DNA of 64,000 nt from assembly GCA_017380635.1 (NCBI GenBank), contig JAFODP010000010.1, positions 1-64,000 on the forward strand. The letters run 5' to 3'. This document shows positions 30,801 through 58,567 of the stretch, in pieces (the stretch's first letter is position 1; the number at the start of each line of letters is the position of its first letter). Source of the stretch: Bacteroidales bacterium (GTDB lineage: Bacteria; Bacteroidota; Bacteroidia; Bacteroidales; UBA1402). The translations under genes were made by a program, and so were the position numbers. The notes beneath the pieces are model-generated. The model did not search any database. It was given only the letters and a program-made list of their open reading frames with translations, and was not told where the DNA came from.

Positions 30801-31260
30801 AGAGTGCGGAAATATGGTCGAAAATCATATTCTTACCATTGGCAATACCCACAGCATCCTTTCCGGAAGTACCGCCTACACCCATGCGCATACGCAAATG
30901 GCGTACAATAACATCGTTGGCACCGGAGAAAGAAATTCTGTCACCGTAAATCTGCACACCTTCACCGGGAGCCGTTTGGCCCAGAATGGTGATATTATTC
31001 TTGATAACCAAGGCAGATTCCAAATTGATGACGCCGGAAACATCAAATACGATGATACGATTGGACGAAGACACGGCATCGCGGAAAGAACCGGCGCCAC
31101 TGTCTTTCAAATTGGTTACATGATACAAAGTACCATAACGGCCACCCACTGCATAACGGCCGAAACCTTCTGCACCGGGGAAAGCCAACTGTTGGGCTGT
31201 CATCGATAACACGCCAAGCAAACACATACTCAGCCACAGATACATTCTTTTCATAGTCAT
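27823..31260 (-). CDS. Multidomain pectate lyase-like protein with T9SS-type tail
   Basis: 1145 residues (a second start two codons on is equally possible). Signal peptide ends near TAQQ. A PL1-like parallel beta-helix (about 22-430) begins AFPGAEGFGRYAVGGRYGTL and contains VFDVSGVINL, RHLRMRMG and NNVVYNWGNGGCY. A calcium-binding-type DSDGDAMPDAWETANGLNP follows, then two fibronectin III domains (about 450-640), a beta-rich LFYSDFG module, an Ig-like Big_5-type domain (about 805-900), a galactose-binding-like module (about 910-1060) and a C-terminal sorting-type tail ending KIMVK. It likely cuts pectin outside the cell. Its last three modules resemble those of the next gene upstream. Confidence 0.85.
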   Translation of the reverse strand: MTMKRMYLWLSMCLLGVLSMTAQQLAFPGAEGFGRYAVGGRYGTLYHVTNLKDSGAGSFRDAVSSSNRIIVFDVSGVINLESALVIKNNITILGQTAPGEGVQIYGDRISFSGANDVIVRHLRMRMGVGGTSGKDAVGIANGKNMIFDHISALWGRDENFSVSWDNKGTEPSNITIQNSIIGQGLQTHSCGGLIQTNGGVTQYRNLFIENKTRNPKVKGLHQYVNNVVYNWGNGGCYIMGDTEASSWADIRNNYFVKGPWDGATAPFTRGTPTFTYYGEGNYYDSNVNGVLDGTEMGHPYSGSTQVKDWANWDNHTRPQAHAEIKGLMSAQDALAWIIDSVGPSLPVRDQVDQYLIDELKSYGKKGTTDGITTERDLPHKGTGALYGGYKPQDSDGDAMPDAWETANGLNPNDASDAMQIAANGYANIENYSFSIVSAYPYVKSPSSLSASEITKVSMLLKWTDNASDETAFVLEQSSDNKSFTQIATLDANVNSYRVEGLTPETKYYFRVRALNGEILSVYSNVLAVATIGDPEMPKVSVNPTPEHQGSHGVSSTLKMTWENKTNSYGGKLYYSVFIGTHPDSLTQVARNLSTTAFTYTKTLSVGKVYYWRVDAKNDLGETAGDIWNFEAVPGGQLFYSDFGSKPAAWASTYGSIGDNTNIINAANTTKTVAGMTFGAGSNAIRIIAMSSANVSSDTGADYGPYTAADAGASPRCVQFYTTKSGGYMTLPEVQGPCRIVLYLGNPDKSSKTVNLKQIIKGTESQAMAMTMASAKRTFKFEYVYVGSEKITFKIDANAKKFNVNDVLLEAYVPDISEIPIEIAATPAAEDFSYADGSMAITFNQDIKYNGGIKLNGKQFEQVSASASGKNLTINYNSLAPNTDYVLDLGEIIDFNATKTFKGEFAFRTCDFPPTKLEGENHYGKAATAMPLDFVPFNQTAPFTTVGGLVQEAQNDYPHWVQASGTISANSAVMTNTKDKLMAYFNQPAQSITIKADFSGSNVAFKVQETRNADVAPYWRTIRQFSAQDFPIDMQLPLDAEARFIKITAPTLSGSVTVSRLQISNEPVTALSENMLAAMKVYSPVMNCLRVEVAQANTVLRVYNLLGELCHQSQVDAVSEVALPSGLYIVRLQNDAQDLTQKIMVK

Positions 31261-34300: not shown

Positions 34301-34412
34301 TATTCCAGATGGAATCACCAGCAGCGCCGTTCCATACCAAAGTAGCAGGTTCGGCAGCTACAAGACTGGCAGACATCAAAGCTGCCAAGCCCAATGAGAA
34401 GATTTTTTTCAT
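31344..34412 (-). CDS. Large beta-strand-rich surface protein with T9SS-type tail
   Basis: 1022 residues. Signal peptide MKKIFSLGLAALMSASLVAA. The N-terminal part opens with LVWNGAAGDSIWNTESANW, the pattern of autotransporter-associated beta-strand repeats, and continues as a long beta-helix-like region to about 590. Two Ig-like Big_5-type domains follow (about 610-690 and 695-800), then the same galactose-binding-like module seen in the neighbouring lyase (with VTWRTIREIN and FIKIKPSQA), and a sorting-type tail ending KAIVK. No catalytic motif is recognised. Codon choice, by eye, is closer to the ribosomal genes (many GCT, GGT, GTT) than to its neighbours, suggesting high expression. Confidence 0.75.
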   Translation of the reverse strand: MKKIFSLGLAALMSASLVAAEPATLVWNGAAGDSIWNTESANWLEGEMATPWVEGSVAAIAPDSLGAEQRYIKVYDSINVANFLFDSPQNYTLISATDSVDKGVHGDFLFVKKGTGTLKLQGQDFWFWPAQGTVIEAGTIEVAGPAAASNNIEEQVLGPQVTLKNGATLTFNTNTTDKHGYEDIKIDLIIEDGAEVTVNFDRNLVHTGKLVGGKDVVFNMGLKYLREHFMGNWSEFEGRINMTPWEPLDGTGNAFFIMCDTLGIAEYDADGNYLATYPAAASPIDSTKVKELGYSYTKRVPLGYPKAHIHLNDKAYLYTGGNMSNSAASSAYPSTDITVCHVGALSGTAAAVLGAGGQQRGSFEANWYIGGLNTNEVFEGTINNSGYKKNAKATHIHKVGTGDWRLTNAKLTNVGNYSVEEGSLTILGQVTTTSSVIVKEGASLKGNPVFTAAGTAEIAGMLEPGDSTLNNSIGAIEFQNANVNIKETAVIKIGLGQGRSDQVVYYGTTTLSAGSKIEFFVEENTVKAGDQFRILVPYQDNANASVLDEGCEVVCQEGLEIDYTNLFADPQWVEGEEKAICGTITVISNTAQGIYGSETAKVKEMTPAEGAYVGTSGAIVLTYDKEVLRGTGDITMGGVAFEPVIKENVVTINFKGLSTEVEGYELIIPEGAILDAYDNVATKAYKASFLLDKVNPTFVEQSVANDAEISWADGKITLTFDENVKVADAKAFTINKTQWEMVKPVANGKTIELNYVALNFETAYTVNIAEGAITDAVGNPAAALTLNFKTAGYDKTMDDSTALNGKTATTLPIEQYPLTAGNSSAYPLWVQNKEGNFAEGTGVTWTSNNSGNKVMAAFTGDAQALYVWAKATGKEMLLTIQESPAEAGVVTWRTIREINDWDLGENERRFEFALTPGCRFIKIKPSQASATSSIIITGYKVDNKPVAIENADASEVMAYQVSGGLMLSGLTAGNKVEVFNLSGNRVAMFQAEGTELYVPAEGFVLIKVTAQDGAKVMKAIVK

Positions 34413-34456: not shown

Positions 34457-36379
34457 TCAATTCATCGGCAAGAACCAGTTCGATTCTGTCAGTTCGGGCA
34501 CGGTAGAACCTGCTTCACGATGCTTGCGTTGTACCTGACGGTTGAGCAAGTTGGCCGGAGAATGTTCTTCGGTGTGTGCATCCACCGCATCGGCCATACG
34601 ACGACGGCTCACGCGCAGCAAATCGCCCCAACGATGTCCTTCGAAACCAAGTTCGAGCGCAGCTTCCTGCAAAAGATAATCTTCGATCCAACGTACAGAG
34701 TCCATGTGAATAACTTCACGCAAAGCCAAGGTGTCGGCCGCATTGGTAGCCGCTTGCCACAACAAGGTATCACCACGATAATCCTTAGCCCATGAAGGTT
34801 CTCCACGGCCACTCAGATAAACGCGCGAGCGCAAGCCCAAATGTCCGCTCCAAGGTCCGCGATATTCACCGTGAGCTTCATCCACATTACGAGCATCGAA
34901 ATAATAAGGTTCGGGGTAAGCTTCGTAAGCAACCGTCTGATCGATAGCACCATCGGCCGTGTAAGTAGGCCAACCGGTGTATTGACAACCATTCTTGTCG
35001 CTACGGCTATCGTTGAAGGTTGATTGGATACCGCCGTTCAGGAAAGCAGTGGCCAATTTGGGATAACCGGCACGGTTCACGGCTTCGGCATAACGCAAGT
35101 GCAACAAAGCGGCACGATACAAGAACCAACGTCCTTCCAAACGATAAAGATTTTCTACATTATTGTAATCCAAATGAATCGTACTGTTCACTTCGTCCAC
35201 ACTGTGCTGATAGTAATCGTAGAGATATTTCAGTACCACGGGTTGTCCGTTTACCCAGTCGAAAGAAGATTCACGACCACGTCCGTCAAAAGCCAAACCA
35301 TCACCACTCTGTTGCTGATTTTCCCACAAACTGTCGATGGCATAAGCCGAAGGTTTCAGTTGGTATTCACCCTGACCGGTATTGGCAAACATCTTGATGA
35401 AAGGATAATTGGGTTCGTAACGGTAATCGTAGCTCATCACCCAAATCATTTCATAATCGAGCTCGGCATCGGTGGTAGGCAAACTGAACATTTCTTTCCA
35501 CTTATTGCGGAACTGGCTGATATTACCATCGTTGTAACGCAAGAAGCGCACCCAGAATCCCTTGGGTGTACTACCCTGCTGCCAAGTTCCTGCAGTGGTT
35601 TTATACTTGTAACCATCTTCGTTGAACTTGTTCATCAAGGTATAATACTGACGGGCAGCTTGTTCGTATTGGTTGTTCCACAAGTAAAGGTCGCCCAACA
35701 AGAAATATTTGTTGATAAACAACATCTTCTTCTGATAACCGGCTTCCATATTCTTGGCCAATTCCACCACATAGTAGTCTTCCATGGTGGGAAGATTTTC
35801 CATTTCGGCAATCAGCACGGGCAACAAAGCATCCAAGGTATAGGTTTCGAACAAGCTTGAATCCAAAGCTTCTTCGGCCGAGTTGATAGGATTGTTCACA
35901 TATTTCACTTCGCCATAGTGAATACCCAGTTGCAGATAAGTCCAGCAACGGATAGCCATCACGTCGGCATAGCGTTCGTTGTAGTTGTCGGCATCGAGGA
36001 TGAGCGCTTCTTTCATCTGGTCGAATTTTTCCAAAGCCTCGTTACAGTTCAGAATCACTTCGTAGAAAGGACCCGCGTTGCAATAAAGGTTGTTGTTCTT
36101 CACCTGATGATTGCTCAAAGCCAACATATCGGGTGTTGCGTTATCGGTAACATCCATCAAGTCGGCACGAACTTCGTTCAACACAATCACTTCGTCGGCC
36201 AAATCCATAAACTTGCTGTATACACCCATCACGGCTGCATCGGCGTCGTAAGTGGTCTTATAGAAATCGTCTTCCAGCAATACTTCCTTGATGGTGGGTT
36301 CCATACAAGCATTCATGACCAAAGCAAGCAAGAGAACCCAAACAGCCTGCATCTGTTTCATTATATTCTTCGTTTTCAT
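34457..36379 (-). CDS. SusD/RagB-like outer-membrane lipoprotein (second pair)
   Basis: 640 residues if started at the ATG preceded by AAAGGAATGCTT; an ATG five codons upstream is possible. Lipoprotein signal ends VMNAC. The start of the mature part (DDFYKTTYDADAAVMGVYSK) and the C-terminal ALELGFEGHRWGDLLRVSRR are SusD hallmarks, with TPR-like helices between. It would form the lid of the SusC channel encoded 19 bases upstream and bind pectin-derived oligosaccharides at the surface. Confidence 0.93.
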   Translation of the reverse strand: MKTKNIMKQMQAVWVLLLALVMNACMEPTIKEVLLEDDFYKTTYDADAAVMGVYSKFMDLADEVIVLNEVRADLMDVTDNATPDMLALSNHQVKNNNLYCNAGPFYEVILNCNEALEKFDQMKEALILDADNYNERYADVMAIRCWTYLQLGIHYGEVKYVNNPINSAEEALDSSLFETYTLDALLPVLIAEMENLPTMEDYYVVELAKNMEAGYQKKMLFINKYFLLGDLYLWNNQYEQAARQYYTLMNKFNEDGYKYKTTAGTWQQGSTPKGFWVRFLRYNDGNISQFRNKWKEMFSLPTTDAELDYEMIWVMSYDYRYEPNYPFIKMFANTGQGEYQLKPSAYAIDSLWENQQQSGDGLAFDGRGRESSFDWVNGQPVVLKYLYDYYQHSVDEVNSTIHLDYNNVENLYRLEGRWFLYRAALLHLRYAEAVNRAGYPKLATAFLNGGIQSTFNDSRSDKNGCQYTGWPTYTADGAIDQTVAYEAYPEPYYFDARNVDEAHGEYRGPWSGHLGLRSRVYLSGRGEPSWAKDYRGDTLLWQAATNAADTLALREVIHMDSVRWIEDYLLQEAALELGFEGHRWGDLLRVSRRRMADAVDAHTEEHSPANLLNRQVQRKHREAGSTVPELTESNWFLPMN

Positions 36380-36397
36380 AAGCATTCCTTTCATAGA

Positions 36398-39300
36398 TTA
36401 CAAAGCGATTCTCAAACCAAACAATACACTGGCCGCTTGAGGCGTTGCACCGGTATCGATACCATAGTACAAAGGATTTTGCGACATATTCGATTCAGGA
36501 TCGTAACCTAAATAATTCGTCAAGGTAAAGACATTGTTGGCGGTGGCATACACTTCCAAACCACGCAAAATGGGGAAACCTTCCTTGATAGGCACCTGAT
36601 AAGCCAAAGTCATGGTTTTCAGTTTGAAGAAAGAACCATCTTCGATCCAACGATCGGAGAAACGACTATTGCCCATGGGGTCGCCATACACAGCACGAGG
36701 CATGGTGGTAGCGTGACCTTCGTAGCTCCAACGGTTCAAAGCGGCAGCCGTCTGATTGATAGTGCTGCTCATAGCTTCCATCTGATGTCTCAAAGCGTTG
36801 TAAACATCATTGCCCCAAGAATAATTGAACATCGCATTCAAGCTGAAACGTTTCCATTGCAAACGGGTGCTGAGCGAACCGAACAAATCGGGATTGGGAT
36901 CGCCAATCACCACCATATCTTCGCTATCGATGACGTTATCGCCTTGGGTCTGGTTGATGAAATGTACATCGCCCGCGCCAAAAGCTGCATACTGACCATT
37001 GCTCTTTTCGGTTTGCAAATTGGCTGCATCAGCATCGGCCTGCGAAGCAAATACCACTTCGGGAGCCGTTTCATATCCATAGAACAAAGCCAATGGCTGA
37101 CCTTCCTCGGTAAGAATATTGGCACCGGCATAAGAAGCCACGCTACGTTGATCGGCATATTCCAGCAAAGTATTCTTGTAATGAGAAACTTGCAAGGCCA
37201 TGTCCCATTTAAGCGGACCATTCAACAAACGACCTTGTACACCCACTTCAAAACCGCGGTTGTTCAACTTACCATCGTTGGTGAGGTAAGAAGTGATACC
37301 GGCCGACGAAGGCAAAGTCTTGACGCAAAGCAAATTGTTGGTATTGTTATCGTAGAGGTCGAAGTTGATGTTCAAACGATTGTTCAACAAAGCAAGATCC
37401 ATACCTACATTCTTCTTGACAGAAGTTTCCCATTGCAACTGCGTGTTGGGGATATTTCCGCGAACCATACCGTAAAGACCCAAGAATGAAGCAGGCTGGT
37501 AGAATTTATACACCTGATAAGAAGTGCTGACAGCATCGTTGCCGGATGTACCCAAAGCGGCACGCACTTTCCATTGATTGAGCCAAGAGAGTTCGGGCAT
37601 CCATTCTTCGGAACTGATCAACCAAGCGGCAGAAAGCGAAGCGAAAGGCGCCATGGGCGTATTCAGCACTTTCAGCAAACCGGCAGCATCCTTGCCATAA
37701 TTAGATGAACCATCCAAAGACAAACTGGCAGCAAACAAATATCTGTTTTTGAGGCTATAATCGGCATGAGCGTACATCGATAACCAACGCCAGTTGTTGA
37801 GCATACCGCCATTGATTTCGTAGTCGGCATCACCCGAACCAATAGATTTCATATCGTCGGTGGGAGAATTGAAACCGAAAGCCAAATCTTCTTCTACATC
37901 GCTGCTCTGATAACGGGCACCTACGGTAGCTACCAAACGATGTTCATTTCTTTCTTCCCACTGATAGCGCGCGTAAGCATCGGTATAGAGTTGCAGGAAG
38001 CGCAATGAACGACGGCTCATCTTGTTATGCACGGCACCCAAGCGATGATCTTCGTAAGACATACCGGCCATCGGATAGAAAGTACGTTCGGTAGTCTTGT
38101 TGGTAGTAAGACCGAACACAGCATTCAAGCTAAGGTTTTTATTCAAAGTAATCTGAGGACGCAAATTAGCTTCGAAACGATAGTTCTTGGCAGCAGCCTC
38201 AATATTGTTGATAGCCGAATAAGGATTACTTACACCCAGCACGTCAGCTTCTTCCAAGTCTTTGGTTTTCAAATTGTCGGCACCGTAAACATAAGAAGTC
38301 ATGAAAGGAGCCTTGCTCAAAGCGATATTCACCGGACTGGTAGCAGACAAACCTTCGTCTTTCATGTTCTTTTCTCCGTAAGAGAAAGCCATGTTAGAGA
38401 ACAAGGTAAGACGTTTACCCATGTTGATGCGAGAGTTGAAGCTAGCCGTATAACGAGAGAAATCGGTACCAGTCACCACACCATTATGTTTGAGGAAACC
38501 CAAAGAAAGTGCGAAAGTTGCCACATCGTCACCCCCTTTAATATTGATGTAGTAGTTCTGGTTCAAGCTGTTGTTGAAAACCATGTCTTGCCAATCGGTT
38601 TCCTGATTGTAGCGATAATAGTCGGTGTTGCCTTCCCAACCCCAAGCTTCCATATAAGGCTTCTGGGCATCGAAATAAGGCAAAGCTTGCATTTCTTCCT
38701 GGCTATATTCACCACTATTCTGCATGATTTCAGACAGATAAGAACGATACTGACGCGCATCCATCATGTCGTATTGCTTGGCAGGTTCAAAGTTCAAACC
38801 GGCATAAGTATACACATTGATGCGGGTTACCATCTGATCGGGTTTCAAGGTGTTGATAAGAATAACGCCATTGGCTGCACGCGAACCGTACAAAGCCGTA
38901 CCATCTTTCAATACCGTAATGCTTTCCACGTCCTTAGCATCGATGTAAGAAAGCGGCGTAGACACATTTCCTTCGAGCAATGAGGTACCGTAGGCGCGAT
39001 TATCTACCGGCATTCCGTTAATAACAATCAGAGGTTGCGTATTGGCATTCAAAGAGTTGAAACCGCGAAGATACATATTCACGCCACTACCGGCTGCACC
39101 GGAACGAGCCACCGCATTGACACCGCTACCGCCTACCATCAGTTCTTCTACCGATACGGCACCACGTTTTTGGAAACCGCTGGCATCGTAAGCATAATAG
39201 GCATGCGCCATTTGGTCGCTACGGATATCGTCGAAAGGCATGGCAATGTTTTGTTCTGCGTTGATATAACCTTCTTCGTACAAAGCGATTTCCAGCTGCG

Positions 39301-39565
39301 TCTGACCCAAATAAGCCAAAGTACGACTTGCATAACCTTGTGCCTTCACCTGAATCACCGCATTGGCAGCCGTCTTCTTCAATTGAAAACGACCATCGTT
39401 ATCGCTATAGTCGGAAGCCACACCGGGCATACTTACCGAAGCTCCGGCAATTGCTTGTCCTGTAGCAGCATCGTAAACCTTACCCTGCAAAGCAGCTTCC
39501 TGCGCTTGCATGCTAAAGGCAAAAGCCGCCATCATAAGCATGATTACTATTCTCATATATTTCAT
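36398..39565 (-). CDS. SusC-like TonB-dependent receptor (second pair)
   Basis: 1055 residues. Signal peptide ending MQAQ, a carboxypeptidase-regulatory-like domain (about 24-95, LQGKVYDAATGQAIAGASVS), a plug with VEELMVGGSGVN and YGSRAANGVILINT, and a 22-strand barrel ending in SVLFGLRIAL. Imports oligosaccharides across the outer membrane with TonB energy. Partner SusD is directly downstream; a FAS1 lipoprotein gene lies 21 bases upstream. No extra N-terminal STN signalling domain is seen, so it does not look like a sigma-factor transducer. Confidence 0.95.
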   Translation of the reverse strand: MKYMRIVIMLMMAAFAFSMQAQEAALQGKVYDAATGQAIAGASVSMPGVASDYSDNDGRFQLKKTAANAVIQVKAQGYASRTLAYLGQTQLEIALYEEGYINAEQNIAMPFDDIRSDQMAHAYYAYDASGFQKRGAVSVEELMVGGSGVNAVARSGAAGSGVNMYLRGFNSLNANTQPLIVINGMPVDNRAYGTSLLEGNVSTPLSYIDAKDVESITVLKDGTALYGSRAANGVILINTLKPDQMVTRINVYTYAGLNFEPAKQYDMMDARQYRSYLSEIMQNSGEYSQEEMQALPYFDAQKPYMEAWGWEGNTDYYRYNQETDWQDMVFNNSLNQNYYINIKGGDDVATFALSLGFLKHNGVVTGTDFSRYTASFNSRINMGKRLTLFSNMAFSYGEKNMKDEGLSATSPVNIALSKAPFMTSYVYGADNLKTKDLEEADVLGVSNPYSAINNIEAAAKNYRFEANLRPQITLNKNLSLNAVFGLTTNKTTERTFYPMAGMSYEDHRLGAVHNKMSRRSLRFLQLYTDAYARYQWEERNEHRLVATVGARYQSSDVEEDLAFGFNSPTDDMKSIGSGDADYEINGGMLNNWRWLSMYAHADYSLKNRYLFAASLSLDGSSNYGKDAAGLLKVLNTPMAPFASLSAAWLISSEEWMPELSWLNQWKVRAALGTSGNDAVSTSYQVYKFYQPASFLGLYGMVRGNIPNTQLQWETSVKKNVGMDLALLNNRLNINFDLYDNNTNNLLCVKTLPSSAGITSYLTNDGKLNNRGFEVGVQGRLLNGPLKWDMALQVSHYKNTLLEYADQRSVASYAGANILTEEGQPLALFYGYETAPEVVFASQADADAANLQTEKSNGQYAAFGAGDVHFINQTQGDNVIDSEDMVVIGDPNPDLFGSLSTRLQWKRFSLNAMFNYSWGNDVYNALRHQMEAMSSTINQTAAALNRWSYEGHATTMPRAVYGDPMGNSRFSDRWIEDGSFFKLKTMTLAYQVPIKEGFPILRGLEVYATANNVFTLTNYLGYDPESNMSQNPLYYGIDTGATPQAASVLFGLRIAL

Positions 39566-39586
39566 AACAAATCTGTTTTCAATGGA

Positions 39587-41227
39587 TTAATCATTCACAA
39601 TCGGCACCAGTTCGATGTAATCGAGGAACATGAAACCGGCGTTTTCGTTGTTGTAACGAGTGGTATTGCACAGCCACATGGTAATTTCACCCATGGTGGG
39701 AACCGTCATCACTTTTGCTTCGGGCGTTTTCACTTCGCCTTTATCAATCAAATACTGCGTAGGAGCCGATGCATCCAAATCCCACTGCGTCAGACGAACA
39801 CGTTCAGGATTGGGAGAAGCTGCCCAAGAACTACCCACAAAACAACGGGCATTACCCAAATAGTTGTTGGCCACAGAGTCGGTGGCATTCTTCTTGTTCA
39901 ACTTGGCACGATTGGGCATCGAGATAAACAATTTCTGTTCCAAAGCCAAACCATCATGACCTTCATAATCGTCGTGAGCCACGTAATAGATAGCATAATC
40001 TACCGAGTTCACTTGTGCCAGATACTCAATGTAATAGTTGGTACCATTGAACAAGTTGGTAGCCGAAGATGAAGTTCCCGTAAACTGCTGCGTGGGGAAG
40101 TTTTCAAATTTCGATTTACCATAAAGCATCACGTCGTAACCGCCGCTGGCCCAAGATTTGTAGCGGGTAGCCAGGTTGAAAGGATTCATACAGCCATTGT
40201 AGTTTTCGCCTTCGATACGGATGGGACGAATCTTGTTCTTGAGAGAAATGTTGCAATCGCTCAAGATGTAGATATAACCATTACTGCAATCGATCACTTC
40301 TTTCACGTTAGCTTGAGAGAAAGGAATCTTGATACCATCGAAATTGGTAAACTGCGATTTAGCCAAAGAATCTTCTTCCAACAAGAAAGGCAATACATAG
40401 TCGCCACAGAGGTTGAAAGCAGCAATAGAATCGGTGAGCGCAGCATCGAAAGCCCAAGCATCGGCCGTCTTTGTTTCCATGCGGAAGCAAGGCGCATATT
40501 TGCTCAGCATACGATCGTAAGCAGCATCTTCCACGATAAAATAGCTGAAAACTTCTCTTTCGTTGTTCAAAGGATATTTTTCGAGGAAAGCATTGTAATC
40601 TTTCATCACGATGGGATCGTAGGTGATTTTACCATTTTCGTCCAAACCCGAGGGCACACTCTTGTCGAGGTCGATTACCTGGGTATTCATCGAAAGCAGA
40701 TAACGCACTTGCTTGTATTGGGTCAGTTTGTCGAGCGCTTCCCAAAGATTATCCTTACGTTTGGAAACCGCTTCCACCTTGTGCAACAAACCGTTGGCAG
40801 CAGCTAGGTCGGCCGTCACGATTTGAATACCTTCGAAAGTTTTTTCATCGGCATCGAAGCCAACCGCCTTACCGTTGATAGCCAAGATCTTGCCATTGAA
40901 AGTAGCGTCGTTCGATCTGATCTTCAAGTCGGTAATCATACTTCCCAGAATACCTTTCACCAAAACACTGTCGTTCAAGTCGACACCTTCCCAAGCCGCA
41001 TTTACCGGAGCAAACACGGTACACGAACTCATATCGGCCAAAGTCTGGTCGTAGCCATATTGTTGCAGCATAGCCGCAAAAGTGCTCAAATCTTCCTGGT
41101 CGGCAATCAACTCGACCATATTCTTAGCCATATTCTTGTCGCTGAGGGCCGTGTGATCGTCCCAAGGATTACAAGCGGCAAAAAGCAAGGCTAATGCGAG
41201 CAAAACAGAACTGATTTGATATTTCAT
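39587..41227 (-). CDS. Fasciclin (FAS1) domain lipoprotein, 546 residues
   Basis: Lipoprotein signal MKYQISSVLLALALLFAAC. A FAS1 domain (about 35-155) shows the H1 and H2 style segments LSTFAAMLQQYGYDQTL, CTVFAPVNAAW and LLHKVEAV. A second, divergent FAS1-like region follows (about 160-320), then a C-terminal jelly-roll-like domain (about 325-546) ending FMFLDYIELVPIVND, a form typical of carbohydrate-binding modules. Sits between another FAS1 gene and SusC, 14 bases downstream of the former. A surface glycan-binding role is inferred from context. Confidence 0.85.
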   Translation of the reverse strand: MKYQISSVLLALALLFAACNPWDDHTALSDKNMAKNMVELIADQEDLSTFAAMLQQYGYDQTLADMSSCTVFAPVNAAWEGVDLNDSVLVKGILGSMITDLKIRSNDATFNGKILAINGKAVGFDADEKTFEGIQIVTADLAAANGLLHKVEAVSKRKDNLWEALDKLTQYKQVRYLLSMNTQVIDLDKSVPSGLDENGKITYDPIVMKDYNAFLEKYPLNNEREVFSYFIVEDAAYDRMLSKYAPCFRMETKTADAWAFDAALTDSIAAFNLCGDYVLPFLLEEDSLAKSQFTNFDGIKIPFSQANVKEVIDCSNGYIYILSDCNISLKNKIRPIRIEGENYNGCMNPFNLATRYKSWASGGYDVMLYGKSKFENFPTQQFTGTSSSATNLFNGTNYYIEYLAQVNSVDYAIYYVAHDDYEGHDGLALEQKLFISMPNRAKLNKKNATDSVANNYLGNARCFVGSSWAASPNPERVRLTQWDLDASAPTQYLIDKGEVKTPEAKVMTVPTMGEITMWLCNTTRYNNENAGFMFLDYIELVPIVND

Positions 41228-41241
41228 TGTCGTTGTATTTC

Positions 41242-43017
41242 TTAGTTAGCAATATTTTCACCTTCGTTGGCACAATCGGCAGCATAAGGCAAGATAGAAT
41301 CGCAAGGCGTGTCAATCCAGATTTGGTTGCCACCTACGTCAAAACGAGGCCAGAGCTGATCCTGGTTCTTGGGAATGAAGTGAATCATATCCCAGAAGTG
41401 TGTACCCTTACCCGACAAACCTTCGAAACGCAAAGCATGACGACCGGTGGTATTTACCTTGATGGTTCCCAACATCTTGGAAACGAATACACGACCCTGT
41501 ACATCTTTCGGACGTTTAGCCACATAATATTTCAAACCTTCGGCCAACATCTGCGAAGTGGTCTTTCCGGTAGGCAAGTATTGATACATATCGAATACAT
41601 TGGGGAACTGCTGGATATCATAACCTTCCTGAATGAAATAAGAACGGAAAGTAGTGTTTTCGTCGGTACGACGCCAGCAAACCCACACATTGTATTCACC
41701 TTCAATCAAAAGCGGCGTCTTGAATTCCACCCACAGCAATTCGTTGGGATTCACACCGAACACCAAGTTGTCGTAATAAACATATTGGAACTTATCACCG
41801 AATTGTTGGTCGCAGGTATAGGTGATACCCTTGCTCGACGATTTAGCTTCGAAAGTAACTTCCGACAATTCACCTTGTTTGAAGGTAACGGAAGTACCGG
41901 TTTGACGGAAGCTCTTCAGGGCCATAATTTCGGGTTGTTCTGCCAAATCCCAATAAACAGGCGAAGCTTTACGCTTGCGAGGAGGCATATAACCACTCAA
42001 ATCGTGGATCACACCATTGGCGCAAGTATAATCGGTAAAATAAGAATCGGTGTTGATGTAGATACCCGGATCGTAATTGGCAGCATCGGCCGTGAAGCGA
42101 TTCAATACCACATTCAAACCTTGCAAAGTGATGGTCACCACATTGTCTTTCACGCAAGTCATCTTGGAACCACCAGCCGTACGCAAGTCGGTAAGATAGT
42201 TGAGCGAAGGCAAGATATGATAACCCACAAACATGTCACAAAGATTCTGAGGTTGCACCACTTCGGGACGAATCACCGCCATACTATCAATCAAATCGTC
42301 GAAAGAAGCGATGCCGTTAGCGTTGAGAATGCTATCGTTTTCCACCAACAAAGTAAACCAAGAAGAGTCGGCCGGTTGTTGCAACAAGTCCACGTACGAA
42401 CTGTTGTCTACCGCTTCGATGAAAATATCGTACTTGCCGGCAGGCAGATCTTCCTTCATCGATTGATAAACGGTTTTGGTAGCCATCGTCAACACTTGGT
42501 CGATACGATGAACGATACCATTGTCGCAACGATTGTCTTTAGAAGTAATGCGAGCCTGACGGTTCACTTCGATATAGGCATTGTTGTCTTCGTCAAGATA
42601 AGTCATGGTGGTGAGATAACGTTTCATACCATTGGGCGAAGGCAAACGGCCGTCCACAAAAGTAGAGGTTGCCAAAGTATCGTTCACCAAATGAAACTTC
42701 ACCATTTCCACCAAAGCGGTTTTCGGCATTTCTGCCCAAGAGCTGAAACCTTGAGCCTGAGCCCATGCAGCTACGGCATCATTATCGGGAGCAAAACAAG
42801 TGTAAGCACCATAAGCATGCAAGGTTCCCTGATAACCAGCTTCTTTCACAATTTCGCCGAATTCGCTCAAAAGAGAATCCTGCGTGAGCAGATAATCATC
42901 AATCATAGGCACTTCCGACACAGCATAAGTCTTGTCGTCCATGGGCGACTGACAGGTGGAAAGCGTCATCATCAAAGCGCCTGCAGCTACTATTAAAGCA
43001 ATAATTCTTATTCTCAT
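41242..43017 (-). CDS. Fasciclin (FAS1) domain lipoprotein, 591 residues
   Basis: Lipoprotein signal MRIRIIALIVAAGALMMTLSTC. The first FAS1 domain (about 45-160) has YTCFAPDNDAVAAW and IVHRIDQVL; a second (about 165-320) contains FTLLVENDSI and GVIHDLSGYM. The C-terminal ~250 residues look like a beta-sandwich (LWVEFKTPLLIEGEYNVWVC and HALRFEGLSGKGTHFWDMIH). The gene starts six bases before the SusD gene ends its frame upstream and runs into the next FAS1 gene, so all are one transcript. Confidence 0.85.
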   Translation of the reverse strand: MRIRIIALIVAAGALMMTLSTCQSPMDDKTYAVSEVPMIDDYLLTQDSLLSEFGEIVKEAGYQGTLHAYGAYTCFAPDNDAVAAWAQAQGFSSWAEMPKTALVEMVKFHLVNDTLATSTFVDGRLPSPNGMKRYLTTMTYLDEDNNAYIEVNRQARITSKDNRCDNGIVHRIDQVLTMATKTVYQSMKEDLPAGKYDIFIEAVDNSSYVDLLQQPADSSWFTLLVENDSILNANGIASFDDLIDSMAVIRPEVVQPQNLCDMFVGYHILPSLNYLTDLRTAGGSKMTCVKDNVVTITLQGLNVVLNRFTADAANYDPGIYINTDSYFTDYTCANGVIHDLSGYMPPRKRKASPVYWDLAEQPEIMALKSFRQTGTSVTFKQGELSEVTFEAKSSSKGITYTCDQQFGDKFQYVYYDNLVFGVNPNELLWVEFKTPLLIEGEYNVWVCWRRTDENTTFRSYFIQEGYDIQQFPNVFDMYQYLPTGKTTSQMLAEGLKYYVAKRPKDVQGRVFVSKMLGTIKVNTTGRHALRFEGLSGKGTHFWDMIHFIPKNQDQLWPRFDVGGNQIWIDTPCDSILPYAADCANEGENIAN

Positions 43018-43023
43018 AACGGT

Positions 43024-44592
43024 TTATTTTTTGATAGTGGTGCTGGTTTCATAGAAAGTGTTCTGCACCAAAGACTGGTTAGACTTCAATTCATCGTCGT
43101 GAATGGGCCAATAATGACTGCGATGGTCGCCATACTTCGATTGCAAGCTCTGTTGTTTGCCGGTAGGAGCCGAATTCAAAGCCAAATCCATCAGATAATC
43201 TATCTTGGCATAATTGTTACGACGGGCAAAACGCAATACATCGTACCAACGTTTTCCTTCGAACATCAATTCACGGGCACGTTCATCCAAAAGGAATTGT
43301 TCCAATTCGTCCGCATTGATAATGCCTGAAAAATCGGTTTCGTCGCTTTCCAAAGCATTGGCTCTGCTGCGCACCTGCATAATCAAAGCGTAAGCTGCCT
43401 GCAAATCGGCTTGGGTACCTTTCTGAATCAAAGCTTCGGCCTTCATCAACAAGATTTCGGGATAACGATAGAAAATCCAGTTGGCATAAGATTGTTGCGA
43501 AGTACGAGCCGTTCCCTGACGGGTCAAAGCCATGTATTTCCAGATAATGGTTCCCTGATAAGAATAACCATTGCTGCGCACATCGTACACAGATTCGTCC
43601 AATTCGTACAAGGGGAAATAGTTTCCTTCGATGTAATCGACATTGGCAACCAAGACGTTACGAGCAGAAGCAAAGAGATTGTAAAAACCGTTGGTTTTGG
43701 TTTCGTCGAAATTCAATTCAAAGATGCTTTCTTCGCTGTTGCCGGTAGCCCATACCTTATTAAACATAAGATCGATAGCGGTGACATCGGAGAAATACAG
43801 ATTTTCAACACCGGGCAAAGCCGTACGAGGCACCGAAATCAACACGAATTCTTCTGAATTGATGATAGCGTCGCAACGTTGAATGGCAGCATCGTAATTG
43901 CCTTTCCACAGATAAGCATCGGCCAAAAGCGCTTTCACGGCCCACACCGTCATACGACCTTTAGGGAATTCCATGTTGTAGGCGGGATTGTTCGTTTCCA
44001 TCACACGTTCAGCTTCGGTAAGGTCGAAAATAATCTGGTCCAGAATGCTGTCTTGCGAAGTCTTGGCAATATGATAATCCTGATCGTCGGAAACAGAAGC
44101 TTCCAATACCATAGGCACATCGCCAAATGAACGGGTCAGATAAAAGTACATCATGGCACGCAAAGCCTTGGCTTCGGCCTTGAACAAATCGGCTTCCTGC
44201 TGACTGTAAGAAGCATCCAGTTCTACGGCTTGGTCGGCATATTCAAGCACCAAGTTACAATTGTTGATAACGCTGTAAAAATCAGACCATTTACAAACAA
44301 CATTATCGCTGGCGATTTCACCCGAACGAATAGCCGTATAGGCAGCATTGGGTTTGGTTCCGTCTATTACCATATCGGCACGCAACTCACCCCAAAGAAA
44401 CATACGGTTGACACATTCGGTATTCATCATTTCGCAATAGATACCGATGACAGCCGATTCTACCTGTTCTTTGCTCTGCCAGAAGTCTTCGCGGGTAACA
44501 CCGTCTTCCGGGCTCAGATTCAGCCATTCTCCACAAGAAGTAGCCGAGAGCACCAGCAGCATCAAACTTATTTTTGTCAATATATTTTTCAT
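43024..44592 (-). CDS. SusD/RagB-like outer-membrane lipoprotein (first pair)
   Basis: 522 residues, lipoprotein signal ending LSATSC. SusD N-terminal motif DFWQSKEQVESAVIGIYCEM, TPR-rich helical body with AEAKALRAMMYFYLTRSFGDVP and the C-terminal ARELMFEGKRWYDVLRFARR. Length is normal for the family, shorter than the second SusD here (640). Lies 24 bases after its SusC. Binds oligosaccharide at the cell surface. Confidence 0.95.
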   Translation of the reverse strand: MKNILTKISLMLLVLSATSCGEWLNLSPEDGVTREDFWQSKEQVESAVIGIYCEMMNTECVNRMFLWGELRADMVIDGTKPNAAYTAIRSGEIASDNVVCKWSDFYSVINNCNLVLEYADQAVELDASYSQQEADLFKAEAKALRAMMYFYLTRSFGDVPMVLEASVSDDQDYHIAKTSQDSILDQIIFDLTEAERVMETNNPAYNMEFPKGRMTVWAVKALLADAYLWKGNYDAAIQRCDAIINSEEFVLISVPRTALPGVENLYFSDVTAIDLMFNKVWATGNSEESIFELNFDETKTNGFYNLFASARNVLVANVDYIEGNYFPLYELDESVYDVRSNGYSYQGTIIWKYMALTRQGTARTSQQSYANWIFYRYPEILLMKAEALIQKGTQADLQAAYALIMQVRSRANALESDETDFSGIINADELEQFLLDERARELMFEGKRWYDVLRFARRNNYAKIDYLMDLALNSAPTGKQQSLQSKYGDHRSHYWPIHDDELKSNQSLVQNTFYETSTTIKK

Positions 44593-44616
44593 CTTACATA
44601 TATTATATAGTCAACA

Positions 44617-47600
44617 TTAGAAACCAATGGTCATACCCAAAGAAACATCCTTGGCTTTAGGCGCACGCGTTTGGTCGTAGCCCACCAAATAAATATTCGA
44701 TCCGCCGATAGATACTTCGGGGTCCATACCGGTATAGTTGGTCCAAACCATGATGTTCTGAGCTGTCAAGTGAATCTTCAAATCGCTCAAACCAATAGAT
44801 TTCAGTTTTTCTTTGGGGAAATTGTAACTCAAAGTCAAAGATTTCCAACGCAAGAATGAACCATCTTCTACGTAGCGGTCGCTACCCAACCAGTTGTAAC
44901 CATAACCATAGAGCGCTCGAGGCAACAAATCGGCCGGAGCCTCTTCAGGATTGTCATAAGCATGTCTCCAACGACGAAGCACAGAAGTACTCTGGTTGTT
45001 CATGCTGTACATGCTTTCCATATCCATCTTGGTTTTGTTTACCACTTCGTTGCCCACGCGGAAATAGAAATAAGCACTCAGCGTCCATTGCTTGTTGTAA
45101 CGAATGGTAGGACCAAAACCACCGGTAAAGAGCGGGTTGGCATCGCCTAAGTAAACGATATCCAAGTAGTTGATATTACCATCTTTGTTGATGTCTTCGT
45201 ACTTGGCATCACCGGCTTGGAACTGATAGTCGATGGTAGGATAACCGAAGCGCATATACACCGGATTGCCATCAACATCGTAGATTTTGTTGCCCTTGGC
45301 ATCGCGAGCAATGGTTTCGTCTTCGTTCAAATAAACGCCGGCATAACGATAGCCATAGAAGGAGCCCAAAGGCTGACCAATCTGTACCACAGAAAGATAG
45401 TTACCATTAGAAGTTGTCACACCGCTTTCCATGGCGATATAGGGTGACAATTCGCGGATAATGTTCACCGAACGGGCAATGTTCATGTTCATTTCCATGG
45501 TCCACTTCTTGGTTTTCAAGGGCGTAGTGAGCACGCTCAATTCCCAACCTTGGTTGTCCATGGTACCCACGTTCATAGAAATGCTGTTGTAACCCGAACT
45601 GCTGGGGATAGTCACATTCTTGAAATACAAGTCTTCGGTACGCTTGCGATAGATATCGAAGTCGATGTTGATACGATTCTTGAAAGCCGCAAACTTGAAA
45701 CCTCCATTATATTGATGCACCTTTTCCCAACGCAAGTTTTGCAATTCCATATTGTTGGCCGACACACCTGTCATACCCATATACTGATAAGCATAGGTAT
45801 TGTACATACTGTAAGCCAAATAGTTACCTGAGACCGCATTACCGTTCACACCATAGCTGGCACGCAAACTCAAATCGTCGAGGAATTCCCAGTTGCCCAT
45901 GAACTCTTCAGAAGACAAACGCCAACGTCCTGAGATACTGGGGAAAATACCGTAACGATAGTTGGCACCAAATTTAGAGTTACCTTCCTGACGCACGGTT
46001 GTACCGAAAATGTAGCGGTCTTTCAAAGCGTAATTCAAACTGAACATACCTGCAAAACTTCTGGTCTGGCTCGAAGATGAAGCAATACCCAAAGCATTGT
46101 CGCCGGTGAGTTTAGAAGGCGTTGAAGGATCGGTCAGAGAAGTAGAAGCCGAGTTGGCGGTAGTGATATTCATCGACTCACTGCGAGCGTCGCGGGTATT
46201 GAAAGCAAACATCGCGGTAAGATCGTGGTCGTCGCCCAAGTTAGGCGTATAAATCAACTTATTGTAAGTCTGTACCGTAAACGACTTAGAATCGCTGTCG
46301 TAAGCCTGGTTCACCGAAGTTTCATACATCGGACGTCCCGTTGCAATCTGCGGCAAGAACTTGTTGGTTTTGGTGTTGTTGATGTCGAAGGCCAAATCCA
46401 CCTGATAAGTCAATTGGTTGGGGATGATGTAATACTGCATCGTCAATTTGGGAACGATACGTTCCGAAAGCAGACGCTGCTTACCATGTTCGGCCATAGC
46501 CACCGGATTGTACACCTTGCTCCAAGCACCTTGAGGCGTTTCTTCGGGAGAGAAATACGAAGGCATCATCTGGCCATCTACCGTCCATTCGTACAAACTC
46601 ATGTTCGGCATCTTGGTATAAGCACTCGACAAAACTGTGGTGGTATAGTTACGAGCATTGTCACCATAGGTGTAAGCAATGTCGGTCAATACCTTAATCT
46701 TATCTGATACATAGTAGTCGAGGTTCATACGGGCCGTGATACGGTTGTAGTTCTGTCCGATAACGGTACCACCCTGATCCAAGTAACCCAATGACATACG
46801 ATAACGGGCCTTTTCACCACCACCGCTCAAAGAAACGTTGTGGTCTTGGGTGAATGAATTTTTCTGCACCAATGCAGCCCAATCGGTATTCTGACCATAA
46901 TTATAATAGTAATAGGGATTCTTGGGATCGTAGTAGAATTCGGGGAAAGCCACAGGGCTCATCACATTGGCAATACCTGCTTCGGCCGTATTCTGCTTGG
47001 CTTCCATAATCAAAGTGGTGTATTGGTCACCATTCAAAGTAGGAATAGATTCCTGCGGAAACACACCGGTACCTTTGAAAGTATAGGTAATCTTGGGAGA
47101 ACCGATGCTACCACGCTTAGTTTTAATCTGCAATACACCATTAGCACCTTGCGAACCCCAGATGGCCGTTGCGGCAGCGTCTTTCAAAACCACGATTTCT
47201 TCGATGTCGGCGGGAGAAACGTTCAACAAAGCTGCGTATTCTTCTTCGTCGGCAGTGGCGAAGTCGAAGTCGGCATCGATGGTGGTTTCATAAGGAATAC
47301 CGTCCACTACGATAAGAGGATCGCTCGAAGCATTGATAGAAGTCGTACCACGGATACGGATAGACATACCGGCACCGGGTTCACCCGAAGTTGCTACGAT
47401 ATCCACACCGGCAATACGACCTTGCAAAGCATCATCGATAGAGGCCACCTGCAATTCTTCCAATTCCTTGGTTTCGATCTTGGAGTAGGCCACGGTCATG
47501 TTGCGTTCTTTAATATTCATCATACCATCGTTCACGATACGCGAAGCGGTAATGGTGGCATCGGCCAACATCTTGCTTTCTTCACGCATAACGATGCGCA

Positions 47601-47901
47601 TTTCTTTTTTGCTATCTACAGGCACCACCTGTTTTTCAAAACCGATAAAAGTAAACACCAGCTTCGTTCCTGCTTTGGCACTTACCTGCATCGAGAATTC
47701 ACCATTCATGTCGGTTTGGGCACCGGAGATAAAACGGTTATCAGCATCCATTTCCATGATATTCACGAATGGAAGCGGAGAATTGTCGTAAGAATCGATA
47801 ACCACCCCTCTGACTATCACCTTATTGCTTTGTGCAAAAGCAGGAAGCAAAGCCACGAGAAGGAAAAGGACGATACTATATAATTTTCTGTTCTTCATCA
47901 T
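44617..47901 (-). CDS. SusC-like TonB-dependent receptor (first pair)
   Basis: 1094 residues from the first of two adjacent ATGs preceded by AAAGGAGGTTT; the second ATG is better spaced and equally likely. The upstream frame extension overlaps the FAS1 gene and lacks support. Signal peptide ends AFAQ; carboxypeptidase-regulatory-like domain about 30-110 (VIVRGVVIDSYDNSPLPFVN); plug with LQGRIAGVDIVATSGEPGAG and IWGSQGANGVLQIKTKRG; beta-barrel ending VSLGMTIGF. Forms the import channel with the SusD encoded next. Confidence 0.95.
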   Translation of the reverse strand: MMKNRKLYSIVLFLLVALLPAFAQSNKVIVRGVVIDSYDNSPLPFVNIMEMDADNRFISGAQTDMNGEFSMQVSAKAGTKLVFTFIGFEKQVVPVDSKKEMRIVMREESKMLADATITASRIVNDGMMNIKERNMTVAYSKIETKELEELQVASIDDALQGRIAGVDIVATSGEPGAGMSIRIRGTTSINASSDPLIVVDGIPYETTIDADFDFATADEEEYAALLNVSPADIEEIVVLKDAAATAIWGSQGANGVLQIKTKRGSIGSPKITYTFKGTGVFPQESIPTLNGDQYTTLIMEAKQNTAEAGIANVMSPVAFPEFYYDPKNPYYYYNYGQNTDWAALVQKNSFTQDHNVSLSGGGEKARYRMSLGYLDQGGTVIGQNYNRITARMNLDYYVSDKIKVLTDIAYTYGDNARNYTTTVLSSAYTKMPNMSLYEWTVDGQMMPSYFSPEETPQGAWSKVYNPVAMAEHGKQRLLSERIVPKLTMQYYIIPNQLTYQVDLAFDINNTKTNKFLPQIATGRPMYETSVNQAYDSDSKSFTVQTYNKLIYTPNLGDDHDLTAMFAFNTRDARSESMNITTANSASTSLTDPSTPSKLTGDNALGIASSSSQTRSFAGMFSLNYALKDRYIFGTTVRQEGNSKFGANYRYGIFPSISGRWRLSSEEFMGNWEFLDDLSLRASYGVNGNAVSGNYLAYSMYNTYAYQYMGMTGVSANNMELQNLRWEKVHQYNGGFKFAAFKNRINIDFDIYRKRTEDLYFKNVTIPSSSGYNSISMNVGTMDNQGWELSVLTTPLKTKKWTMEMNMNIARSVNIIRELSPYIAMESGVTTSNGNYLSVVQIGQPLGSFYGYRYAGVYLNEDETIARDAKGNKIYDVDGNPVYMRFGYPTIDYQFQAGDAKYEDINKDGNINYLDIVYLGDANPLFTGGFGPTIRYNKQWTLSAYFYFRVGNEVVNKTKMDMESMYSMNNQSTSVLRRWRHAYDNPEEAPADLLPRALYGYGYNWLGSDRYVEDGSFLRWKSLTLSYNFPKEKLKSIGLSDLKIHLTAQNIMVWTNYTGMDPEVSIGGSNIYLVGYDQTRAPKAKDVSLGMTIGF

Positions 47902-47914
47902 AAACCTCCTTTCA

Positions 47915-50449
47915 TTATTGTAAGATAGCCTTGCAAGGCAAATAGCCATCAATACCATGAATAATACCATGACGCGCATAGAAGTTCGAATTCTTGGCAC
48001 CCAAAATTACCTGAACCGCCGTGCTGTCGCCACCCACTTCGGAAGTTTCGGGAGAAGTGGCAAATACCAAGTTACCATCGGCACTCTTGCTGATATCGAT
48101 GCGAACGGGCAACTGAGCAGGGTTTTCAGGATTGGGATTATAGAAGGTTTCCTGCGACAAACTATGCAGATAAGTTGAAGTCTGATAGTTGTAAATCACG
48201 TTGTGAGGATTCAAGTCGTTAGGAATCACACGACCTTGCAGAATATGCCAAAGCAAGAAGTTCTTGGCCTTGGCCACATCTTCATCGTAAGTGGGAGAAG
48301 AGGTATTGGTAACAGCTTCGTAAGCAGGAAGATAACCATCTTCTACAGCTTGCTTCATAGCATCATTGTTAGGAATGAGCACCGTTACCGTAGCCGTGTT
48401 GTCGATTTCCCAAGGATTGATATAGGCCTTAGCATCACTGTCGTAGGGGAACAAAACAGCTTCAGCATATTTCTTGTATTCGCTGAAAACAGATTTGTTG
48501 GCATCGCAAGCATTCATCACGTAAGTACCCAAACGACCTTCGTTGTACGATTTGGAAGGAACACAATAGTCGATAAGACGGGCATCCATGTCATACACTT
48601 TACCATTCATGAATTCCATGTCTTTCAAGAGAGTAGCTACGTCAAATTGTGTACCGGTGGTGGTAGCATCGAAGCCACCCATAGATTGAATCTGCAATTT
48701 ACCTTGTTTAGCAGCACCGGCAGGCACCTTTACGCGAACCACGTCGCCATAATAGTTTTGCCAGATGTCCCAGCCATATTCCTTGAAACAACGAGAATAG
48801 CCCTCGGCGCCTTCCACTTTCGACTGACCTTTGGTGAGCATGTCCGACATGGTAGAATTCACATCCGCGCTATTGATACGAACGAAGATACCACTCAGAA
48901 TCAATCGTTTCAGACGATCTTCGGGCGTGATATCACCAACAGCGGCATTGGCATTGCTCCAAGTATAGTTACCGGTTTCGTCCGAATATACAAAGGTGTA
49001 ACCATCATTGGTGAAAGCACGGTCTTTGGGAACGAATACCAAATAATATTCTGAGTTGTAACCATTCAAGGCACAACGCATCAATTCTTCTTTCAAGGTA
49101 AATTCATAAAAATCGTCCAACACCGAGCGAGCGATGGTGTAAGAACTATCCATCAACAACTGGGTATAAACGGTTTCAAAATATTTACTCTTGATATATT
49201 TATCGGTACCATACAACAAACCATTGCTGGCCACTTGGATATGCGAGAAGTTTTCATCTTCGAAACTCTTACCAAACACACCGGCGCCGTTGAAGAATTC
49301 ACCCGAATACGACATGGCATTTTTATACTTCGAAGGCCAGATCTGCGTGGGAGTCATGTGCGCCTGCATGAAATATTCCATGATTTCGTTAGGCACTTTG
49401 TCGAGAGAAGTCCAGGAGTTCTTTTTATTATCGGTATAAGGCTTGATGCGTTCGGCATAGAAAGCATCCATCGCATCGTTGGTGGGAGCAAAAATGGTGT
49501 AACCGTCGGTTTCGGCTTCTTTTTCAGAATTGCTCACGCGTTCAGCATTCAACATCACCGGGAATTCGTAGAACTTAATCAAGACTTCGCGGAGATTTCT
49601 ATCCGGATAAATATCACGGAAATATTGGGTTACATCATCTTGAAGCGTATAATACTTGTAGAGATATTCGCCGGCCACGTCCTTTCTGTCGAAGAAGGCC
49701 ATCATCTTGCTGTAACGAGCATCCGATTCGAGTACATTTTCCAAGTTGGGAAGAGGCTTGTTCACTTTATCTACCGCATGAATGATACCGTTTTCGGCCA
49801 TCATATTCTTAGTAACGATGTGAGCACCCTGAATATTTGATCCGTTATAGTCAATGCCGGGATAGAAATATTCGTAGTCGGTAGGAAGCAATCCACGCTT
49901 GGTAAAAATACGGTCGAGATAGGTAGGAACATACTTGTAATTGTTATCGCCCACCGAATAAGAGCCATTAGCCGTTGCATCCACTACCCAAGCCAAAGTA
50001 CTGTCGGGCAACATTTCCTGATAGATGGTGTTGTAGAAAGCGGTCTTCTTCTTGATACTGCTCAGCGTGTCCCAACCATTGGTAAGCACGTCGGTGAGTT
50101 CGTCAAATTCAAAGACATTGTACACCAAGGAGTAAGCCACGATGGTATCGGCTTCGGCAGCCGAAATTTCATCGATAGAAGCATAGCCTTGTTCTTTCAG
50201 ATAATCGTTCATGGCAGAATCTGTAGGAGCGAACACCGTGTAGAAACTAGCTTCCTTCAGAATGCGTTCGTACATCGTACTATCTACCAACTGCAGATAA
50301 GAGTTAAAACGGCCGTCATTTTTCAAGACTTCATAAATTGGCGGCTCCAACCATTCAGGACGAGAATAATACTGATCCCAGTAATCGTCCTTACATTGCG
50401 CGAATAGCAGTATGGCCATCCACACCCATAATAACTTAAAGCGTTTCAT
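47915..50449 (-). CDS. Large multi-FAS1 lipoprotein, 844 residues
   Basis: Lipoprotein signal MKRFKLLWVWMAILLFAQC. About four FAS1-like modules can be traced: 40-215 (YTVFAPTDSAMNDYL, IIHAVDKVN), 220-395 (YTIFAPTNDAMDAF, GLLYGTDKYI), about 400-600 (divergent, LVFVPKDRAF) and about 640-840 (VTVLIPNNDAM, GIIHGIDGYLPC). FAS1 modules mediate adhesion or glycan contact in many proteins. It lies 13 bases ahead of the first SusC gene, which places it in the SusCD transcript. It has no jelly-roll end, unlike the two other FAS1 proteins. Confidence 0.87.
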   Translation of the reverse strand: MKRFKLLWVWMAILLFAQCKDDYWDQYYSRPEWLEPPIYEVLKNDGRFNSYLQLVDSTMYERILKEASFYTVFAPTDSAMNDYLKEQGYASIDEISAAEADTIVAYSLVYNVFEFDELTDVLTNGWDTLSSIKKKTAFYNTIYQEMLPDSTLAWVVDATANGSYSVGDNNYKYVPTYLDRIFTKRGLLPTDYEYFYPGIDYNGSNIQGAHIVTKNMMAENGIIHAVDKVNKPLPNLENVLESDARYSKMMAFFDRKDVAGEYLYKYYTLQDDVTQYFRDIYPDRNLREVLIKFYEFPVMLNAERVSNSEKEAETDGYTIFAPTNDAMDAFYAERIKPYTDNKKNSWTSLDKVPNEIMEYFMQAHMTPTQIWPSKYKNAMSYSGEFFNGAGVFGKSFEDENFSHIQVASNGLLYGTDKYIKSKYFETVYTQLLMDSSYTIARSVLDDFYEFTLKEELMRCALNGYNSEYYLVFVPKDRAFTNDGYTFVYSDETGNYTWSNANAAVGDITPEDRLKRLILSGIFVRINSADVNSTMSDMLTKGQSKVEGAEGYSRCFKEYGWDIWQNYYGDVVRVKVPAGAAKQGKLQIQSMGGFDATTTGTQFDVATLLKDMEFMNGKVYDMDARLIDYCVPSKSYNEGRLGTYVMNACDANKSVFSEYKKYAEAVLFPYDSDAKAYINPWEIDNTATVTVLIPNNDAMKQAVEDGYLPAYEAVTNTSSPTYDEDVAKAKNFLLWHILQGRVIPNDLNPHNVIYNYQTSTYLHSLSQETFYNPNPENPAQLPVRIDISKSADGNLVFATSPETSEVGGDSTAVQVILGAKNSNFYARHGIIHGIDGYLPCKAILQ

Positions 50450-50564: not shown

Positions 50565-50670
50565 AGTTTTGAGAGATTTTTGTTACGGATGCTGCTTCGG
50601 GCTCGAGGAGTTTAGTGGTACTAAATGACGAGAGCCCGGAGCGGAATCCGAAGCAAAAATCGCCAAAACT
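50565..50670. repeat. 106-base nested palindrome
   Basis: Outer arms AGTTTTGAGAGATTTTTG (50565-50582) and CAAAAATCGCCAAAACT (50654-50670), middle arms GCTTCGG (50594-50600) and CCGAAGC (50648-50654), inner arms CGGGCTC (50598-50604) and GAGCCCG (50632-50638), and the centre TTTAGT-GGT-ACTAAA (50611-50625). The right end overlaps the TAG stop of the glycosidase-like gene. It may act as a terminator or attenuator before the FAS1-SusCD genes, or be a small palindromic repeat element. Confidence 0.7.
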
Positions 50671-58563: not shown

Positions 58564-58567
58564 ATCG

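Follow-up and report, generated by a model that had tools for sequence, protein, structure and literature searches.

Two paired SusCD subfamilies, one lacking a recognisable TonB box, share a recurrent seven-gene cassette with FAS1 lipoproteins in Bacteroidota

So far, SusCD complexes have been regarded as homodimers, with TonB driving each SusC. Two SusC/SusD pairs can also lie in tandem, as in the xylan locus xusABCDE, where they are accompanied by the gene of a surface glycan-binding protein (SGBP); to our knowledge, tandem loci of this xylan type are without FAS1 proteins. FAS1 itself is known as an adhesion fold. The levan and dextran utilisomes of Bacteroides thetaiotaomicron are SusC2D2 dimers, that is, one SusCD pair present as a homodimer, which carry an SGBP and a glycoside hydrolase, with the SGBPs sitting on SusC (PMC7618045). 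PMC7618045 also cites an uncharacterised SusCD of the same species that stably binds two lipoproteins of unknown function. Among 5.39 million open-licence papers, only a few mention fasciclin or FAS1 together with SusC or SusD, and none of them describes the cassette. One is a figure legend in which a polysaccharide utilisation locus of Gramella is drawn with a FAS1 domain protein alongside SusD, an annotation label that gives neither a cassette nor a role (PMC4891872).

The locus described here lies in the window, by which we mean the whole 64,000-nucleotide stretch of Bacteroidales DNA that was analysed. It resembles the B. thetaiotaomicron utilisomes in its SusCD core, its apparent single operon and its surface lipoproteins with a C-terminal glycan-binding domain, here predicted from the fold. 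However, the utilisomes contain a single SusCD pair and SGBPs built from Ig-like and binding domains, whereas this locus combines two SusCD subfamilies with FAS1-based lipoproteins, and one of its SusCs lacks a TonB box. The extra lipoproteins are shared with the uncharacterised B. thetaiotaomicron SusCD, which differs in having a single SusCD pair. Tandem SusC/SusD pairs are common to xusABCDE and the present locus, but FAS1 proteins occur only in the latter.

In the ORF list, the seven genes follow one another on the minus strand, from 50449 to 34457, in the order FAS1A–SusC1–SusD1–FAS1B–FAS1C–SusC2–SusD2 (Table 1). The earlier note on this DNA had given the same order; all of its ORFs are in place, with fitting Pfam domains above threshold in all but SusD2, and a chance arrangement is excluded because the order recurs in 59 loci. 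The SusC1 reading frame stays open to GTG 48000 and, as listed, overlaps FAS1A by 65–85 bases. A typical signal peptide begins at ATG 47898, which is most likely the start and leaves a 16-base gap to FAS1A; the other intergenic gaps are 24, 6, 14, 21 and 3 bases. With SusC1 starting there, all gaps span 3–24 bases and the seven genes look like one operon. The range of 6–24 bases proposed before thus holds at its upper limit but not at its lower. Both SusC proteins are full-length matches to TIGR04056, whose curated cut-off is 368 bits. SusD1 is a clear SusD/RagB member; SusD2 reaches SusD-like_3 (PF14322) below threshold only and is a member of the family by cassette position and local profile. 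All three FAS1 proteins exceed the PF02469 gathering score. In each of them, the lipobox (FAQ-C, LST-C and FAA-C in FAS1A, FAS1B and FAS1C, respectively) is followed by acidic residues after the cysteine, a pattern compatible with the Bacteroidetes lipoprotein export signal (PMC5080379). A lipobox is also present in 22 of 24 FAS1A, 18 of 25 FAS1B and 39 of 41 FAS1C homologues, in agreement with the former assignment of all three as lipoproteins. Being lipoproteins encoded beside SusCD in an apparent operon, the FAS1 proteins have the features by which an SGBP is recognised, and their surface location is predicted.

Table 1. Features of the FAS1–SusCD cassette in the window.
Feature	Position	Strand	Evidence
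FAS1A lipoprotein, 844 aa, four FAS1 domains	47915..50449	-	PF02469 6e-23; lipobox FAQ-C
SusC1 TonB-dependent transporter	44617..47898	-	TIGR04056 749.6 bits; start at ATG 47898 most likely
SusC1 TonB-box position, LADATITA	47545..47568	-	Alignment of 57 SusC1; subfamily consensus LxEVvVtA
SusD1 lipoprotein	43024..44592	-	PF07980 2e-32, PF14322 1e-18
FAS1B lipoprotein, 591 aa, two FAS1 domains and predicted C-terminal beta-sandwich	41242..43017	-	PF02469 1e-22; AF2 pLDDT 87.9, pTM 0.81
FAS1B CBM-like C-terminal domain, residues 350-550	41368..41970	-	Predicted-structure matches
FAS1C lipoprotein, 546 aa, two FAS1 domains and predicted C-terminal beta-sandwich	39587..41227	-	PF02469 6e-12; AF2 pLDDT 81, pTM 0.78
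FAS1C CBM-like C-terminal domain, residues 332-545, low-confidence loops	39593..40234	-	Predicted-structure matches
SusC2, SusC/RagA family, without recognisable TonB box	36398..39565	-	TIGR04056 604.8 bits
SusC2 stretch where the TonB box should be, GYINAEQNIAMPF	39233..39271	-	Aligned position
SusD2 lipoprotein, divergent	34457..36394	-	Sub-threshold PF14322; slot kept in all cassettes

The domain architecture of the FAS1 proteins was predicted from profiles and models. The four domains of FAS1A, at about residues 35–235, 236–430, 431–640 and 641–844, align to the FAS1 profile in hhalign with probabilities of 99.7, 98.8, 96.7 and 98.2. TGFBIp (beta-ig-h3) and periostin likewise have four FAS1 domains in a row; however, these are animal matrix proteins with no relation to SusCD. 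FAS1C was folded separately from FAS1B, because the hhalign alignment of the two covers the FAS1 region only. The FAS1 pairs in both models match FAS1 structures at Z 18–22, best of all TGFBIp and periostin (Z 19–22, with FAS1B reaching 21.9 to periostin). The C-terminal sandwich of FAS1B matches xanthan lyase (6f2p, Z 12.6), MiXBM (7ehg, Z 12.2) and CBM4, CBM35 and CBM6 structures (Z 9.5–10), and that of FAS1C matches CBM6 (2cdp, Z 11.3), CBM35 (2w47, Z 11.0) and further CBM6/CBM35 structures at Z 10–11, with a CBM35 structure solved with unsaturated galacturonic acid among its matches. These Z values exceed the tool's 'common arrangement' range and show the fold, not the function; domain III of the insecticidal Cry toxin, also a beta-sandwich, scores about as high as the CBMs. 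The FAS1 proteins have no Pfam match beyond PF02469, and the CBM6/CBM35 likeness of the C-terminal domains is a similarity of fold. Within each protein, conservation is lowest in the sandwich (21.6% versus 25.5–27.5% in FAS1B, and 17.6% versus 23–24% in FAS1C), as expected for a part that sets specificity. In FAS1B and FAS1C, glycan contact would more likely be made by this domain than by the FAS1 fold. Since FAS1A holds only FAS1 domains, it is better explained as a dock or bridge than as a third binder. A PDB sequence search gave FAS1 proteins of animals, algae and cyanobacteria, together with the bacterial beta-ig-h3/fasciclin protein 1w7d, but no relative from Bacteroidota.

The 59 loci with the seven-gene order comprise 26 from a survey of the order, 23 from a scan of named genomes with the SusC1 profile and 10 from a class-level draw. 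In the first of these, a FAS1B profile gave matches in 29 of 148 genomes, in 27 genera, and local profiles run on the survey loci placed the 26 loci, which keep the strict order in a single orientation, in the window's family and nine other families. Some weaker matches are FAS1 proteins without a nearby SusC (e.g. L028 and L029). Orphan FAS1B-type proteins of 672 aa (L009:7235-9253) and 666 aa (L049:10207-12207), which have no SusC/SusD nearby, adjoin other large lipoprotein- or enzyme-like genes. The named-genome scan found 23 further cassettes, including those of Paraprevotella clara YIT 11840 (L070), Geofilum rhodophaeum (L058), Algibacter miyuki (L059), a Salegentibacter (L056), Puteibacter caeruleilacunae (L079), a Chitinophaga MAG (L054) and rumen Prevotella. 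A whole-phylum survey with the Pfam Fasciclin model returned mostly short secreted FAS1 proteins of 170–220 aa, which form a different group, and was replaced by the cassette-specific profiles. The cassette gives a simple genomic signature for loci of this kind, and these are present in Bacteroidota of the gut, the rumen and the sea.

A FAS1 search of the window's own genome found two further seven-gene loci (L011 and L012) and one without FAS1B (L010). The cassettes supply eight SusC genes of this 2.3-Mb genome, and their gene products are only 14–55% identical between paralogous cassettes. In a 2.7-Mb relative (G001, L033–L040), nine very dissimilar SusC1/SusC2 cassettes make up a large share of the SusC genes. 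Because FAS1B is absent or relocated in L010, L051, L075, L039 and L042, the cassette does not strictly depend on it. FAS1A is unusually long in L010, L051 and L075 (1057, 1041 and 1121 aa), as if it had taken over a part of the missing protein, and a long FAS1A is present in some complete cassettes too. A related six-gene form lacks FAS1C (L030, L084 from Parapedobacter composti, L133 and L134); here FAS1A has about 650 aa and FAS1B about 480 aa, and SusC2 starts almost at the plug. FAS1 genes are constant partners of these SusCD pairs in related loci, where their absence would have spoken against the claim in the earlier note that the three FAS1 proteins are the glycan-capturing parts of the complexes. 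Of that claim, the partnership stands; the FAS1 fold as the point of contact gives way to the likelier CBM-like domain, and FAS1A is less likely to be a binder than a dock or bridge.

SusC1 and SusC2 are obligately paired and form two distinct subfamilies. Against the SusC1 profile no member falls below 1267 bits, and the highest-scoring other SusC of those three genomes reaches 613; for SusC2 the lowest member has 1005 bits and the next SusC 660; the gap exceeds 340 bits in both cases. Their counts match in five genomes (4:4, 9:9, 2:2, 2:2 and 5:5; 22:22 in total). Among 396 genomes sampled evenly across the class, the window's own included, SusC1 is present in 12 and SusC2 in 10, where scoring the two best candidates per genome reports presence, not copy number. 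All 10 genomes with SusC2 are among the 12 with SusC1, and the remaining two carry the six-gene form. In the named-genome scan, FAS1A directly precedes SusC1 in every SusC1 locus with upstream sequence; about 45 non-SusC1 loci of the same scan, a built-in control, have no cassette FAS1 apart from one 14-bit match. Pairwise distances of the seven proteins across 35 complete cassettes correlate for every gene pair (r 0.85–0.94), and for the one gene pair tested by permutation the best of 1000 values was 0.17. From the matching counts and these correlations, the seven genes are duplicated, diverge and spread together; the correlation reflects co-inheritance, which could come from linkage, and is not proof of contact.

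The two subfamilies also differ at the TonB box. Bt1763 has its box, VDEVVV, after the N-terminal extension and before the plug, and loses function when the box is deleted or replaced (PMC7782687). At the aligned position, LDEVVVVG-like words are found in nearly all of 57 control SusCs and LxEVvVtA-like words in nearly all of 57 SusC1 proteins (57 if I or M is allowed first), and a TonB-box-like motif occurs in none of 50 SusC2 proteins. With a PSSM compared with shuffled sequence, 35 of 39 controls, 24 of 53 SusC1 and 0 of 36 SusC2 lie above the 99% level. A regular expression for the box was too tight for SusC1 (11 of 57) and ill-shaped for the controls; it was replaced by the PSSM and the aligned positions. 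Several SusC2 proteins lack the N-terminal extension as well (L033, L030, L084, L133 and L134), and many have a recurring proline-containing stretch, [YF]...P[FYL]G, in place of the box, which may be a remnant of it or an alternative contact. The name 'TonB-dependent' is doubtful for SusC2, since none of the 50 has a TonB-box-like motif. The two SusCD pairs are probably not two complexes of the ordinary kind; they are distinct subfamilies that always occur together, one of them with a SusC that has no recognisable TonB box.

We consider it probable that the cassette forms one outer-membrane module of the Sus (utilisome) type for glycan capture and import, in which SusC1D1 is powered, SusC2D2 serves it without normal TonB coupling and the FAS1 lipoproteins act as docking and capture parts. 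SusC1D1 would be a conventional TonB-energised 'pedal-bin' importer. SusC2D2 would be a second complex unable to engage TonB normally, most likely a fixed neighbour of SusC1D1 or its partner in a mixed dimer, and would work as a receptor or gate and not as an importer powered on its own. FAS1B and FAS1C would be surface glycan-binding lipoproteins held on the complexes through physical contacts of their two FAS1 domains, with the C-terminal CBM6/CBM35-like domains binding glycan. FAS1A, with four FAS1 domains and no binding module, would be a scaffold or dock, perhaps linking both SusCD complexes. More tentatively, and with slightly less than even confidence, we propose a mixed assembly of the two SusCD pairs, one TonB-energised and one not, which is held together and armed by FAS1 lipoproteins that bind glycan and whose seven genes are passed on as one fixed set. 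A widespread, strictly paired SusC without a TonB box raises the question of whether one powered barrel suffices for a mixed dimer or whether a SusCD can work without direct TonB coupling. FAS1 domains, in turn, gain a likely role in bacterial glycan uptake.

The cassette might instead encode two ordinary, independent importers in tandem, as in the xylan loci, with FAS1-containing SGBPs. SusC2 is a full TIGR04056 member with an intact plug signature, and the recurring proline-containing stretch lies at its box position, so that it could be powered through a diverged TonB box. However, in none of the genomes scanned does SusC2 occur without SusC1, both SusCs of a tandem SusCD locus used as a control (L119) have retained a canonical box, and the whole N-terminal extension is gone in several SusC2 proteins; we regard independent importers as unlikely, though a serious alternative. 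A different role for the FAS1 proteins, as adhesins for plant or host surfaces or for other cells that are co-expressed with the importers without being parts of them, would agree with the adhesion fold and with TGFBIp and periostin tandems as the best structural matches. Yet these proteins are tied to one SusC1 subfamily, are co-inherited with the other genes of the seven, and end in a CBM-like domain instead of more adhesion modules, which makes this role improbable.

SusC2D2 could also be a signalling or regulatory receptor that senses the substrate and takes no part in transport. Its missing TonB box makes active import doubtful, and it always accompanies a powered SusC1. TonB-dependent signalling receptors, however, need both TonB and a signalling domain, of which SusC2 has none, even the N-terminal extension being absent in several loci, and no regulator gene is a constant neighbour of the cassette in the loci inspected. 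A sensor of this kind is very improbable, and a SusC2D2 that assists the powered SusC1D1 remains the preferred reading.

Regarding the substrate, two pectate lyases (PF00544) are encoded upstream of the cassette at 56029–59974, and a GDSL/alpha-beta hydrolase protein lies upstream too. Because of these lyases, pectin is a plausible substrate of the window's cassette. In a Pfam tally, the flanks of other cassettes contain GH2, GH43, GH20, GH88, GH95 and esterases, with no single substrate. Since the flanking CAZyme types vary among loci, the cassette appears to be a general chassis that is not tied to one glycan. Immediately after SusD2, the same strand encodes a 1022-residue protein with a Big_5 domain (31344–34412) and a 1145-residue protein with fn3 (27823–31260). 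Just upstream of FAS1A, a 734-residue protein without a Pfam match (50669–52873) resembles, by eye, glycoside hydrolases of the six-hairpin type.
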